A stretch of DNA of 55,522 nucleotides, taken from positions 1 through 55,522 of the forward strand of contig JAAUPS010000008.1 in NCBI GenBank assembly GCA_012033015.1. The letters are read 5' to 3'. The translations under genes and the position numbers were made by a program. The stretch comes from Phormidesmis sp. RL_2_1. Lineage in GTDB: Bacteria; Cyanobacteriota; Cyanobacteriia; Phormidesmidales; Phormidesmidaceae. The notes beneath the pieces are model-generated. The model was not told the origin of the DNA and ran no database searches. It saw only the letters and a program-made list of their open reading frames with translations. Of the stretch, positions 83 through 41,978 are shown piece by piece; the stretch's first letter is position 1, and every line of letters starts with the position of its first letter.

Positions 83-1724
83 TTAACTGATTATTAAACT
101 GTCTATTAGTGACCTTGAAAGGGCTGCCTCTAGAGGGCTAAACTCATGGGCCAAATAGCCCACTGCATACCGCGCCGGAATGCCAGCACCCCGCAGCAGT
201 AGGGTTGTGGCGCTGGCAAAATATTCGCAGTGGCCCGCCTGGATATGCAGTAAAAAATCGGAGATAGGCGTAGTTGCCGCATCCGGGCGCAGCAGATCCA
301 GAGAGTATTGAAAGTCTTGGAAATAGGCTGCAATTTGGCTGACCCTTTCTCGCTCAGGTTTACCGGCTATAGCAAGGCGCTTTAAAGTGGTTTCAATTGC
401 TGCTTTGTCTGCCTGAGGAATTTGTAAATCGGTGGCAGTAGGGGGAGCTTGAATGCCTTGCTCTGCATCGACATCCGTGATATTAAAATCAACGGTATAA
501 GCGGCATTGCCTGTGGCATCTACCTGCACTGCACCATACTGATTTTGCTGCATTTCGGCGACAGGCAATTGTCGGATCATGGTGGTTCCTTGGGGCAAGG
601 GGAGAACGCCGTCACCACGCTCCAAATCATCAGAAATTGTGATGGTTGTTACTTGCCGCTGCGGCGATGATAGTAGCCACTCACCCTCGGTTGTTCGTGG
701 TGGAACTGTCTCAAATAGAGAATTTGTCGCTGTCCAAGACGACAGTTGGTATTGATTGTAGGTCGCCTCACGTAGCAGTAAGGGGAAAATATCTGCTGCT
801 TTTTCGTCTGAGGTGCTGGTGGGTGGGTGCGCTGGCTTGATCTCTAGATGTCTCTTTGGCTCTTTCTTTGACTCTTTCTTTAGTTCTTCCTTTGGCTCTC
901 CCTGTAGGGCCATCTTTGGCGTTGGCGCTATGCGGAAGGCAATTTTACTCGACAGTTTGAGTTTGCCGACGGAGCCCATCCGCGTAGTATTTTCTCCGGG
1001 GTCAATGGCACCGATGGTCAAATCGCCCAGCATGGCAATCACCTGCGCTTCTAAACGTTGCTGAAACTGGGAGATTTGCACATGGCTGCTGAAGCCTAAG
1101 CCTGCAGATAAACAAAACAGTAAAACCCATACCACCCAGTTTGAGTGCTTGGGTCTGAGTGTCCACATTAGCAGTGCGCTTAAGGCCGTAAGGGCGCTAT
1201 AAAAAAATAAAACCATCGCTATCAGCAGCACTAGCCGCCAGCAGACAGATTGCGAAGTAGGGGTAGTAAAGATTAATCGGATAGCGCTGATAGCGAATTC
1301 CCTGAGTGGATGAATAGGCGTTTGAAAAGGTACTTGAGGAAGGCCCTGGGAAAGCGCTTGAAAAACTTTCACGCAACAGAGCTTGTACGCCTAAAGCGTA
1401 GGTCTGAATCATGACCAAAGGGAATGCTGCCACTGGCAGCCACTGCAATACGCTGTAAATAAAGAGCGATTTTTTGGTAATGCTCAGCACGACTAACAGC
1501 AGTGCCAAGATAACGCCACAAAGCTTAGCTACTTCTTTGAGATCTGAGGATGAAATTTCCCATCGTGGTGTTGCTATACGCCGAGCTTCTAGCAAAAGCG
1601 CCATGGGTAAAGCTACAACTATCAGTCCTGTTTGCCACCCCCAAAAGAGTGTGGCCAAACTACACAAGCTGGCACTGTTAAGTTGTTTTTCATGAGTTGG
1701 GTGATGGGTTTGAAGATTGATCAT
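83..1724 (-). pseudogene. TgpA-like transglutaminase-domain membrane protein, frameshifted and 3'-truncated
   Basis: ORFs 1197-1790 (N-terminal TM part) and 83-1372 (TM end plus transglutaminase core start HCEYFASATTLLLRGAGIPARYAVGYLAHEF) join in one reading if one base is removed from the A7 run near 1201-1207. The core ends just after the Cys region with unrelated sequence. Follows DUF58 and MoxR genes as in typical operons. Confidence 0.75.
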
Positions 1725-12434: not shown

Positions 12435-13271
12435 CTAGCTCGACCTGTAAGCTTTGGGAGTCATCCCGGTTAGCTGTTTGAACTGTTTGCTCAAATGACT
12501 GTGACTGTTAAAGCCACAGGCGAGGGCAATATCAGTGATTAATCGATCTGTGTTTTTCAACAACTGCTTTGCGCATTCTACTCGCTGCTGCAGTAGATAT
12601 TGGTATGGCGATATGCCGAGGGACTGTTTGAATAAGCGACTGAAGTGAAATTGACTTATATCTAACAGTTGAGCTAGGTCGGCTAGTTTAATCTCTTGAT
12701 CGAGATGGACATCAATATAGTCTAAGATCTGCCGTAGCTGACGAGAGGGTAAGCCACCTTCGTAGATGGGTAAATGTGGTCTTGTTGTGGCGTGTTGCCT
12801 GAGCAAGTTTACGGCCAGAATATTAGAGAGAGAATCAATGTAAAGGCGGTTGGATAGTGAGCCCTGCTGAAGTTCGTTGAGTAGCATGGTGCTGATGGAT
12901 TCGAGCTGGGGATTGCGGGTCTGGAATTCGGGTTTTAGGGTGATGCGATCGCACTCTCCAACCACCGTCTCCCTCGCAACATTCCGCATAAACTCATCTG
13001 CTAGCCGAATTCTCAGGCAATGCTCCTCCCCCTCCCATCGCACAAACAGCGGTGTATTCGCTGGAGTAATTAATATCTCTCCTCGTTGGTACAAGCCTGT
13101 ATGTGTCTTGCCATCCTGGGCTTGTAGGTAATGAACCGGGCGAGTAGCCAGCGACATAAACAGCGTATGCTCACCTTCAAAGAGGCAGTTTGCCTCCCCA
13201 GGCGGATACCGCAGTAGATCGATTTGAACTTGTGTTGGGTCATTAATCGTTTCTATAGCTGTATTTTTCAT
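12435..13271 (-). CDS. AraC-family transcriptional regulator
   Basis: Two C-terminal HTHs: LADLAQLLDISQFHFSRLFKQSLGISPYQYL and ITDIALACGFNSHSHLSKQFKQLTGMTPKAYR. Confidence 0.93.
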   Translation of the reverse strand: MKNTAIETINDPTQVQIDLLRYPPGEANCLFEGEHTLFMSLATRPVHYLQAQDGKTHTGLYQRGEILITPANTPLFVRWEGEEHCLRIRLADEFMRNVARETVVGECDRITLKPEFQTRNPQLESISTMLLNELQQGSLSNRLYIDSLSNILAVNLLRQHATTRPHLPIYEGGLPSRQLRQILDYIDVHLDQEIKLADLAQLLDISQFHFSRLFKQSLGISPYQYLLQQRVECAKQLLKNTDRLITDIALACGFNSHSHLSKQFKQLTGMTPKAYRSS

Positions 13272-13429: not shown

Positions 13430-13933
13430 TCAATAGAGCCATTTGCTGTACTGTGGATGTGTTTTCATGTCTTCGTATACCCAAACCATTCGATCTAAAA
13501 ACCAGGTCTTTCCTAGGATGATCCAGGACAATCCGAAGACTGTCAAACAAGGTGACAAGGTGATGAGGCCAGTCAAGCAAATGGAAAATCCTACGACATT
13601 TACCATGTTGGTGAAGGCGATGACCGGATTGTGATGTTGTGGAATAGGCCGTTGCTGACGGTTTAGCCAGACGCGTTCGCCTAAGACGGCCTTGGACGCC
13701 CAGTGATGGGTGGTTTGTGGTCTGGGAAATATGCGAGGGTTGAGCCAAATCCAGATGAGCGCGATCGCACTTGGAACCACGGCTCCCCAGCCCAGCCAAA
13801 CCCGACTCCAAATAGCCATCACCAGAACCGGCAATGCCACATAGCGAGTCCACACGCTCCATGGGTTTGCATGGCGAGCCCAGACGCTATCGGTCATATG
13901 AAAGAAGCTTGCAACTTTCTGCATAACGGTCAT
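13430..13933 (-). CDS. DUF6653-like membrane protein
   Basis: MTDSVWARHANPWSVWTRY...LNPRIFPRP...WASKAVLGERVWLNRQ; family recalled from memory. Confidence 0.7.
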   Translation of the reverse strand: MTVMQKVASFFHMTDSVWARHANPWSVWTRYVALPVLVMAIWSRVWLGWGAVVPSAIALIWIWLNPRIFPRPQTTHHWASKAVLGERVWLNRQQRPIPQHHNPVIAFTNMVNVVGFSICLTGLITLSPCLTVFGLSWIILGKTWFLDRMVWVYEDMKTHPQYSKWLY

Positions 13934-13983: not shown

Positions 13984-14385
13984 CTACTTTTTGGCAAGCA
14001 GCAGGATTAAGAACAGAGCGAGTAAGACAGCTTCGGTGCCCATTAGACCATTGAGGGTTTGGGCGTCTTCGGGTTTGAGGATGAAGTGCGATCGCAACAA
14101 GGTATACGGCACAAACTGCAATAGAACAATGCCACCGAAAACAAACCACGCCGACCAGCCCAGCCCCTTCCACAGGCTAACTGCGGCTACTACATCAAAT
14201 ATTAAGAGGGCGATATCCATACAGCGCCAGAGCAACGGCGTTGCCAGCCAGGGCGTTCCTGAGAGTCCTGCCATATTACCGATATGAACTGTAGCGCCAT
14301 AGGCTAGAAAAACTGCGACCAGCTTTGCATATCGAGCCGTCCAGGGTTGAAAAGAGGTTGAAAAAGTTGTGATATCAGATGTCAT
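13984..14385 (-). CDS. hypothetical four-TM membrane protein
   Basis: 133-aa hydrophobic ORF between DUF6653-like and CPBP genes. Confidence 0.6.
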   Translation of the reverse strand: MTSDITTFSTSFQPWTARYAKLVAVFLAYGATVHIGNMAGLSGTPWLATPLLWRCMDIALLIFDVVAAVSLWKGLGWSAWFVFGGIVLLQFVPYTLLRSHFILKPEDAQTLNGLMGTEAVLLALFLILLLAKK

Positions 14386-14412
14386 GTTTAATATCTCCTA
14401 TTGTTTTTGTCG

Positions 14413-15307
14413 CTAGGCAGAAAGAGAAGGCGCTAGCGATTGAACCATGATCAAAAAGGCGTGAACAAGCATATGGGCCAAAATGGCACTCTCTAGTCCA
14501 ACTTGCCAATACAGATATCCTGCTATATAGCTTTGGTCGCTTGGCTGAGGTACAGCATATTGGCTGAAACCATGACGTGACAACGGGCCAAGCAACGCGC
14601 TTGTACCGAATGCATCCGGCACAAGCTATAGTGCCAAACAAAGCATTACCGACAACGATGTAAAGCACTAAAGCAGGTGTTATTTCCGTACTGAGCACAG
14701 CTACTGCGGGTAGATGAAGTAAGCCAAAGACGATTGCAGAAACCAGGATAGAAATAACGACATATCTCATATAGGGTGTACCCTTTCGCCTTTGTAAAAA
14801 GCGCCATAAGGCCCACAAGAGGAATGTCATCAGCCCCCAACGCAGTACGATCTCCTCGGCAATACCCCCTTTTAGCAAGCGCACGATGAAAGGCACCGTC
14901 ATCTGAGACCCAGCGGATAGAAAGTCGCTTGGCAGAAAGGGTTTCAGGATTGCAAACCAGATAAGCGTTAAACCTAATCCCATGAGTCCACCCAGGGCAG
15001 CCGGGATGAGCTGCGGCTGTATTGCTTGCCACGGACGGACTGATCTATTGGCAATAGCTTCTGAGAAAGGAGCAGATAGAGCAACTTTTGGCGAAAGGAC
15101 AACGCCGCCCCAAGTCGCAACAGTCAGGAGTACCACAGACTGCAACAATCCAACTAGCTTGATTGCCAAGGGTGACAGCGGCACCGACTCAACAGACTCA
15201 GTTAAGATATCGATTGGAATATCGACCCACAGCGTAGATAGCTCACCAACAAATCCGGCTAACCATAGCAATAAAAACAGGGGCTTGTTGAAGGTTTGTT
15301 TAGTCAC
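14413..15307 (-). pseudogene. CPBP-family intramembrane metalloprotease, interrupted by a MITE-like insertion
   Basis: GGIAEEIVLRWGLMTFL and FGLLHLP motifs in ORF 14375-15307. C-terminal AGYLYWQVGLESAILAHMLVHAFLIMVQSLAPSLSA lies in another frame (ORF 14413-14622) after the insertion. Confidence 0.88.
14528..14628. mobile_element. MITE-like element, 101 bp, flanked by TA
   Basis: Ends TAGCTT...AAGCTA with TA at 14526-14527 and 14629-14630. Removing element plus one TA restores the CPBP reading frame (...FGTIAGYLYWQ...). Confidence 0.85.
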
Positions 15308-15397: not shown

Positions 15398-15457
15398 ATA
15401 TCTACCCTCGCCGGATATCTACCCTCGCCGGATATCTACCCTCGCCGATATCTACCC
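15398..15457. repeat. 17-bp tandem repeat (atctaccctcgccggat), about 3 copies
   Basis: Read directly; overlaps the 3' end of the AraC ORF. Confidence 0.9.
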
Positions 15458-16341
15458 GGCGTTATGCCAACAGCGCGCTTGAAGTGGCGATTGAGATGGG
15501 CTTGACTAGAAAATCCGACCTGATAGGCGATTTCTGCAATAGAGAAGTCTTGTTTTTTCAGTAACTGCTGGGCTCTTTTTACCCGCTGTGAAATCACGTA
15601 CTGATGAGGTGCAAGGCTCATGGACTGTTTGAATAAATGAGCAAAGTAATGGGGACTGAGTTGCAGTAGATTTGCCAGCTCTTTTAATCCTAAGGCCTGA
15701 TCCAAATGAGTTTGAATATAGTTGAGAACCAGTTTGAGCTTTTGTTTTGATAAGCCGTCTGTGTAGGTTTTGGGCGAAGCCGGACGGGTGCTGTAGCACT
15801 GTAAAAGATGCACCATCAGGGTATGGGTGAGGGTTTCGGCGTAAATGCGATCGCCCTGTCCACCTGTTTCTAAAATGCCTTTGAGCCCGAGCGCAAGCTG
15901 ATAGAGCAAAGGGTCGGGCTTGGAAAATTGTGGCAATAGCTCAACTTCGTCAGGCGTAGCCGTTTCGTCTATAACTGTTGCTAAGTGAGCGGGAGATAAG
16001 TACAACGTTATGGCTTGTAATTCTATGTCCCAATACTGACCGTAGCTAAAGTTTGCAGGCACGATAATCGCACTGCCGACGGGTGATGTATCTTGCCATT
16101 CCCTGCCATCAGCGTAGCGCAGCATCTTAGGTGTCCGTTCTGCTTGGCAGGCAAAGGTAATGTAGTGATGGGGAACGATGGTTGCTTGGAATCCAGTGGC
16201 TCCAAACTTCCGATAGTCTAAGTTTAGGCCACTCCACCCAAGATCATGACTCGACAAAATAGGATGGTTGTCGAGCACTTGATCGACCTCTTCTCTAGAG
16301 TTCAATCGAATGGGGGCTGCTGACGTCCTGATTTGTGACAT
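15436..16341 (-). CDS. AraC-family transcriptional regulator
   Basis: LKELANLLQLSPHYFAHLFKQSMSLAPHQYVISQRV...IAEIAYQVGFSSQAHLNRHFKRAVGITPGRYRR. Confidence 0.93.
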   Translation of the reverse strand: MSQIRTSAAPIRLNSREEVDQVLDNHPILSSHDLGWSGLNLDYRKFGATGFQATIVPHHYITFACQAERTPKMLRYADGREWQDTSPVGSAIIVPANFSYGQYWDIELQAITLYLSPAHLATVIDETATPDEVELLPQFSKPDPLLYQLALGLKGILETGGQGDRIYAETLTHTLMVHLLQCYSTRPASPKTYTDGLSKQKLKLVLNYIQTHLDQALGLKELANLLQLSPHYFAHLFKQSMSLAPHQYVISQRVKRAQQLLKKQDFSIAEIAYQVGFSSQAHLNRHFKRAVGITPGRYRRG

Positions 16342-26464: not shown

Positions 26465-26715
26465 ATTCTTTAATTAAATAGCCAGCAGAGATAAATATTC
26501 AGCAGATGCTTGGCACGCCGCTATAGCCAATATCGAGCTGAAGCACTGTCTCTTCAAAATCGTCCATTAGCTGGCTAACTCTGGCATAGCCAATCTGTTC
26601 TCCAGTTTCTTCTCCAATAAGCTGAAACAATCTAGGAAAACAGGCGATTTATCCAAGAATGCATCCGGTACAGGCTATATGCTCGGGCTGTTGGGTCGCA
26701 AAACAACAAGAGTGA

Positions 26716-32625: not shown

Positions 32626-32750
32626 TAGCTTGTGCCGGATGCATAACGCCGACGGCGAGGCTACGCCAACGGGCCAAGCGACACGCTTGGCCCGTTGGCA
32701 TGCAATGGCTTCAGCTAACATGCTGTACCTCAGCCAAGCGACCAAAGCTA
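32626..32750. mobile_element. MITE-like element copy 2, 125 bp, flanked by TA, with internal 16-bp perfect hairpin
   Basis: Begins TAGCTTGTGCCGGATGCAT and ends GTACCTCAGCCAAGCGACCAAAGCTA, inverse of copy 1. Internal GCCAACGGGCCAAGCG-aca-CGCTTGGCCCGTTGGC. Confidence 0.85.
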
Positions 32751-38610: not shown

Positions 38611-38633
38611 CCTCAGCCAAGCGACCAAAGCTA
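38611..38633. mobile_element. MITE end fragment (cctcagccaagcgaccaaagcta)
   Basis: Matches the terminal 23 bp of copy 2; followed by 11-bp repeats of tcccaaagcta. Confidence 0.7.
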
Positions 38634-38683
38634 TCCCAAAGCTATCCCAAAGCTATCCCAAATCTAGTAGCCAACCAGCCGGA

Positions 38684-41870: not shown

Positions 41871-41876
41871 GCAATA

Positions 41877-41978
41877 TCGCTTTGGTCGCTTGGCTGAGGT
41901 ACAGCACGCTGGCTGAAGCCTCTATGTGACAACAGGCTAAGCGACGCGTGTGTACCGGATGCATTCGGTACCCGTATT
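41877..41978. mobile_element. MITE-like element copy 3 (degenerate)
   Basis: TATCGCTTTGGTCGCTTGGCTGAGGTACAGCACGCTGGCTGAAGCC...TGTGACAACAGGCTAAGCGACGCG...GTACCGGATGCATTCGGTAC aligns by eye with copy 1. Confidence 0.8.

Follow-up and report, generated by a model that had tools for sequence, protein, structure and literature searches.

The locus described here raised a simple question: what is the 101-bp sequence that separates two parts of a protease gene in the cyanobacterium Phormidesmis sp. RL_2_1, and how may it have come to lie there? The window (the whole stretch of 55,522 nucleotides that was analysed) holds this sequence at 14528-14628, where direct reading gave TAGCTTTGG...GGCACAAGCTA between two TA dinucleotides. 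The layout of positions 14526-14630, also read directly, is TA-TAGCTTTGGTCGCTTGGC...GCTTGTACCG-AATGCATC-CGGCACAAGC-TA-TA. The locus consists of the following features.

14375-15307, minus strand: open frame of 310 aa from the ORF list, running through the element into an unrelated, frameshifted tail.
14413-14525, minus strand: the 3' remainder of the CPBP gene, AGYLYWQVGLESAILAHMLVHAFLIMVQSLAPSLSA with its stop, in a different frame from the 5' part; placed by a gapless, colinear alignment of homologues with the insert removed.
14526-14527, no strand: left TA of the target duplication, from direct reading, gene colinearity and filled and empty DNA pairs of other copies.
14528-14628, plus strand: the 101-bp MITE copy, with its TAGCTTTGGTCGC end on the left; read directly and supported by genomic copies.
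14528-14545, plus strand: left terminal repeat TAGCTTTGGTCGCTTGGC; the 20-mer that includes the TA is conserved in 120 places, and the 77-bp class has a matching repeat at both ends.
14585-14596, minus strand: inner portion of the right-hand terminal repeat (GGGCCAAGCAAC, which is complementary to GTTGCTTGGCCC), by comparison with GGCCAAGTGACCAACGCTATA of the 77-bp class.
14599-14626, no strand: right-end hairpin, with arms at 14599-14608 and 14617-14626 and the loop AATGCATC at 14609-14616.
14629-14630, no strand: right TA of the target duplication, on the same basis as the left TA.
14631-15307, minus strand: 5' part of the interrupted CPBP/Rce1-like gene, from its PF02517 match and from homologues in the family group.

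The initial annotation had described a 101-bp element with TAGCTT/AAGCTA ends of 6 bp and a TA on both sides. The letters read as it said; the 6-bp ends were right, but the terminal repeats reach about 20 bp in the shortest members of the family, and in the window copy the hairpin separates the inner part of the right terminal repeat from the terminus. The element encodes nothing recognisable, and Rfam returned nothing meaningful within 14400-14750.

We then turned to the host gene, which the initial annotation had named as a CPBP protease gene that reads in one frame once the element and one TA are excised. The 5' part matched PF02517 over positions 5-71 of the 93-position profile, at E=7e-7 and 29.9 bits (cut-off 22.4), and the conserved motifs of the domain were found on both sides of the insertion, EEIVLR and FGLLH upstream and AHMLVH downstream. 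Of 59 genomes in the family group, 21, this one among them, have a homologue of the 5' part; none of the other six genus members does. Once the 101 bp and a single TA were removed, ...GNALFGTI-AGYLYWQVGLESAILAHMLVHAFLIMVQ aligned without gaps to about 20 homologues from relatives, the alignment running through ...NALFGTI-AGYLYWQVGLESAILAHMLVHAF... Both claims were borne out. As for orthologues that might carry the 101 bp as coding sequence, there were none among the intact CPBP homologues, all of which read straight across the site.

The target in the window was the TATA within this CPBP/Rce1-type membrane protease gene. The net gain of 103 bp shifts the frame such that EExxxR and FxxxH are kept, the final AHxxxH region is lost and an unrelated tail is gained; the insertion does not close the frame, which is open throughout the element. 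Judging from the conserved motifs, the 310-aa product is probably, or even very probably, inactive as a protease, because the element now lies between EEIVLR and FGLLH on one side and the last conserved region, AHMLVH, on the other. Since both flanking gene parts are otherwise open, the event is probably recent. The neighbours of the gene, all on the minus strand (12435-13271, 13430-13933 and 15436-16341), are a DUF6653 protein and two regulators of the AraC type, of which the second was assigned from its sequence alone.

The sequence is not private to this gene. Searching the own genome by blastn returned 40 scored copies, the best matching the window copy at 96% identity. Allowing up to one mismatch, the left end, taken as the 20-mer TATAGCNTNGGTCGCTTGGC, had 120 matches across the 5.56-Mb draft genome and the reversed pattern 0; a 23-mer occurred four times in the window against 0 expected. 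The repeat is therefore not a product of chance. Three size classes were apparent, of about 77, 101 and 126 bp: among 64 complete deduplicated copies, 28 measured 126 bp, 14 measured 101 bp and four measured 77 bp, with a few of other lengths. In the 77-bp class, both ends consist of the 20-bp repeat TATAGCGTTGGTCRCTTGGC or a sequence near it (loci L056, L068). The 101-bp class differs from this by 24 additional bases near the right terminus, which form the hairpin; copies of the 126-bp class contain one more insert, in the loop region of that hairpin. The element is thus short (<200 bp), non-coding, repeated and bounded by terminal inverted repeats, and the description as MITE-like proved apt.

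The same window holds several other copies or fragments.

32626-32750, minus strand: second near-complete copy, 125 bp, flanked by TA and with an additional internal insert (direct reading and pattern matches).
38611-38635, minus strand: truncated left end, followed by a short tandem array of its own terminus (pattern match and tandem-repeat search).
41875-41973, plus strand: degenerate copy in which the right terminus is not intact (pattern match).

Lone fragments of the right-end hairpin, with the rest of the element missing, lie at 26679 and 43054 on the minus strand (TATAGCCTGTACCGGATGCATTC, TATAGCGTGTGTCGGATGCATTC). The window also looks dense in tandem repeats: Tandem Repeats Finder gave 43 array rows over positions 1-55522, with periods mostly of 9-24 bp, and the array at 38625-38666 repeats the terminus of the truncated element.

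When the flanks of the 64 copies were joined, the window copy alone clearly broke a conserved gene, by a crude ORF test. One further 126-bp copy (L124, about 1320-1449, minus strand) lies exactly between a transposase-like and an HNH-like fragment, which suggests a rearrangement at the element. It was considered as a second gene interruption and rejected: joining its flanks merely fuses two unrelated fragments and does not restore an empty site.

The proposed TA duplication could be read at the DNA level, with one TA in empty sites and two in filled ones. In locus L028, a 126-bp copy lies inside a second repeat family, as GAGGAGAATGAC-TA-element-TA-TTGTCCTAACTCAC; the corresponding empty site, in L142, is GAGGAGAATGAC-TA-TTGTCCTAACTCAC, with a single TA (in short, GAATGAC-TA-element-TA-TTGTCC against GAATGAC-TA-TTGTCC). 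L142 and L251 match the joined L028 flanks at 29 of 29 bases across the junction. A further pair is formed by L025, filled, and L127 and L250, empty, and the CPBP homologues provide a third comparison. TA flanks are also general among the other copies, as the initial annotation had asked to see: the left ends inspected start with TA in 93 of 101 cases, and with TATAG in 86 of 101.

L025 and L030 are filled at the same TA of the second repeat family as L028, so that this one TA, empty in L142 and L251, has been hit several times independently by members of the window's family. Repeats in this genome therefore act as landing sites. At two other loci (L005, L026), a family member is nested in another, with different inner size classes. 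Here the two TAs are placed differently (TTCTG-TAGC...GCTATATAAAGG), which counts against a plain TA duplication, although the net added length fits; the arrangement lies in a related element, and the distribution of TA at its junction is unusual.

The bases beside the target are also biased. Position -1 is C or A in 60 of the 64 copies and position +1 is T or G in 53 of the 64, while -2 and +2 are mainly A/T. This bias is mirror-symmetric about the TA, in keeping with a transposase that works on double-stranded DNA and targets a palindromic TA, and not with the one-sided target of a Y1 transposase.

The hairpin near the right end varies in an ordered manner. In 34 distinct 101-bp copies from several genomes, 29 distinct stems surround a nearly constant AATGCATC loop. 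On average 8.97 of the 10 stem positions are paired, as compared to 7.18 when the arms are shuffled, and the maximum in 5000 shuffles of the 3' arms was 7.94; such shuffling leaves the relatedness of the copies in place, and the test is to be read as indicative. The changes between copies are compensatory, as in the stem pairs GCGTTACCCG/CGGGTAACGC (Leptolyngbya sp. BC1307, L178), GCTGGTACCG/CGGTACCAGC (L223) and GCGTTTCTCG/CGAGAAACGC (L020). Selection on the structure, or correction from arm to arm within the palindrome, would each give this pattern.

The same kind of end is found on the second abundant repeat family of this genome (TATAGCAAAGTTAAGGATGCATTCTGACTTTG..., L234-L261), where the hairpin has other stems; once, in L247 from position 1500, it stands nearly bare between TAs, as a unit of about 34 bp. 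Inside the second family there is also a near-identical counterpart of GTTGGCGTAGCCTCGCCGTCGGCG, the extra block found within 126-bp copies. A module GTTGGCGTAGCCTC(G/T)CCG... was likewise seen both in the hairpin loop of the 126-bp class (e.g. window 32626-32750) and inside the second family (L142:1630-1660), and the same place in the loop holds related but different inserts in BC1307 (L181), in Phormidesmis priestleyi (L187) and in L226. It is conceivable, if rather unlikely, that the right-end hairpin (TATAGC, a free stem, the AATGCATC loop, the complementary stem and GCTATA) is a portable mobile module that may swap between MITE families, its pairing rather than its sequence being kept either through a role in transposition or through constant correction by its own other arm.

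The family has a narrow distribution. By blastn, it was present in four of seven genomes of the genus, the own genome included, and in none of 31 other genomes searched. Pattern matches came from Leptolyngbya sp. BC1307, Phormidesmis priestleyi and one MAG labelled Limnothrix, and lone left-end matches from two other genera of the taxonomic family; plasmids and viral contigs gave no matches. The family is thus essentially confined to one Phormidesmis/Leptolyngbya-like genus.

How, then, would the element move? Very likely, it is a MITE mobilised by an enzyme whose gene lies elsewhere, most likely an IS630/Tc1-mariner-type transposase, which inserts with duplication of TA. A transposase acting in trans would recognise the ends, of about 20 bp, of the non-autonomous copy, which would be excised and then inserted at a TA, duplicating it. 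The duplicated TA target is itself a feature of the IS630/Tc1-mariner group, and ISY100, a cyanobacterial IS630-family element, offers a precedent (PMC2170065). IS630-family loci of the genus have the inverted termini TATAGCAAGCAGC (L080/L097) and TATAGCCATCC (L089), which have in common with the element the outermost TATAGC only. The IS630/Tc1-mariner assignment made in the initial annotation thereby gained the mirror-symmetric bias and the shared TATAGC as arguments and is a well-supported inference.

The IS630-type parent with the same ends, also called for in the initial annotation, was not found. None of the DDE_3-containing loci inspected in the seven genus genomes, which are drafts whose loci were sampled in part, shared its terminal repeats with the element. 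Inverted-repeat searches around each DDE_3 gene of the own genome and its congeners revealed no transposase gene between matching ends, and the left-end pattern led to no parent in 65 genomes of the order and a database of genome contigs. One candidate (L198) was taken as a divergent end beside a gene and rejected, the ORFs there giving no second end. Most of the DDE_3 genes detected in the own genome are broken or incomplete; since this genome is a draft of 436 contigs, the parent could sit in an unassembled repeat. Because a matching parent was not found, we class the element as a MITE that targets TA and behaves like those mobilised by IS630.

The missing parent would also suit mobilisation by another DDE-family transposase that leaves a TA or 2-bp duplication. 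This is improbable: it is the IS630/Tc1-mariner family that is established to duplicate exactly TA (PMC2170065), and the IS630-family elements of this very genus have the TATAGC terminus too.

We consider it very improbable that a Y1 (HUH) transposase of the IS200/IS605 or REP/RAYT-like kind moves the element in single-stranded form, with the right-end hairpin itself as the substrate and the TA as a left target that is not duplicated. A covarying stem around an unchanging AATGCATC loop would suit such an enzyme, and the genome has three Y1_Tnp genes or gene fragments. However, IS200/IS605 elements use a one-sided target, whereas the bias observed here is symmetric and the TA is found once in empty and twice in filled sites. 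Moreover, members of the 77-bp class lack such a hairpin and end in long inverted repeats, and inspection of the three Y1_Tnp matches showed none associated with the repeats: no full family end lies near them, with one loose hairpin match (L233). That the 101 bp is plain coding sequence, or a protease C-terminus specific to this lineage, with no insertion at all, has a negligible chance of being right: the frame is open across it, but the sequence recurs genome-wide outside the protease gene and the homologues, which lack it, are colinear across the join, which refutes this reading.

A high-copy, TA-targeting MITE family is now documented in Phormidesmis/Leptolyngbya-type cyanobacteria, and a clean gene knock-out together with empty sites at the DNA level fixes the boundaries of the element. 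For annotation, the family accounts for the frameshifted protease gene and for many short repeats in the genus. The covarying hairpin modules common to two repeat families are the part that specialists might pursue. We found no paper describing the family in a literature search conducted mostly outside subscription journals. Tiny mobile elements of this kind are well known; the family is new.

Small dispersed repeats of cyanobacteria were reportedly treated by Elhai et al. in 2008; the block GTTGGCGTAGCCTCGCCGTCGGCG behaves as a small dispersed module of this sort, whereas the element as a whole is longer, has terminal repeats and duplicates TA. The terminal repeat of the Correia elements of Neisseria also begins with TATAG. 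Correia elements, or NEMIS, are TA-ended MITEs with long terminal repeats and known filled and empty sites, and come in classes of about 107 and 155 bp that differ by an internal block (PMC2229807). The present family resembles them in these features, but its hosts belong to another phylum and its classes differ by the hairpin close to the right end and by another insert in the loop. RUP of Streptococcus pneumoniae (107 bp, about 100 copies, TA target) often sits in other mobile elements (PMC2229807), a nested habit seen here too; unlike the present element, for which no candidate parent was found, RUP has one in IS630-Spn1, its proposed mover (PMC2229807). ISY100 (ISTcSa) of Synechocystis, an IS630/Tc1-mariner element with 24-bp inverted repeats, inserts almost exclusively at TA and duplicates it (PMC2170065); it is likewise cyanobacterial with a duplicated TA target, but is autonomous, with 947 bp and a transposase. 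ERIC, or RU-1, of enterobacteria is a TA-ended, non-autonomous short repeat of 127 bp (PMC2229807, PMC2759123), as is the present element in kind, but with an unrelated host and a terminal repeat of 7 bp. All together, the element works like Correia/NEMIS, RUP and ERIC, the TA-ended, non-autonomous elements of about 100-150 bp (PMC2229807).
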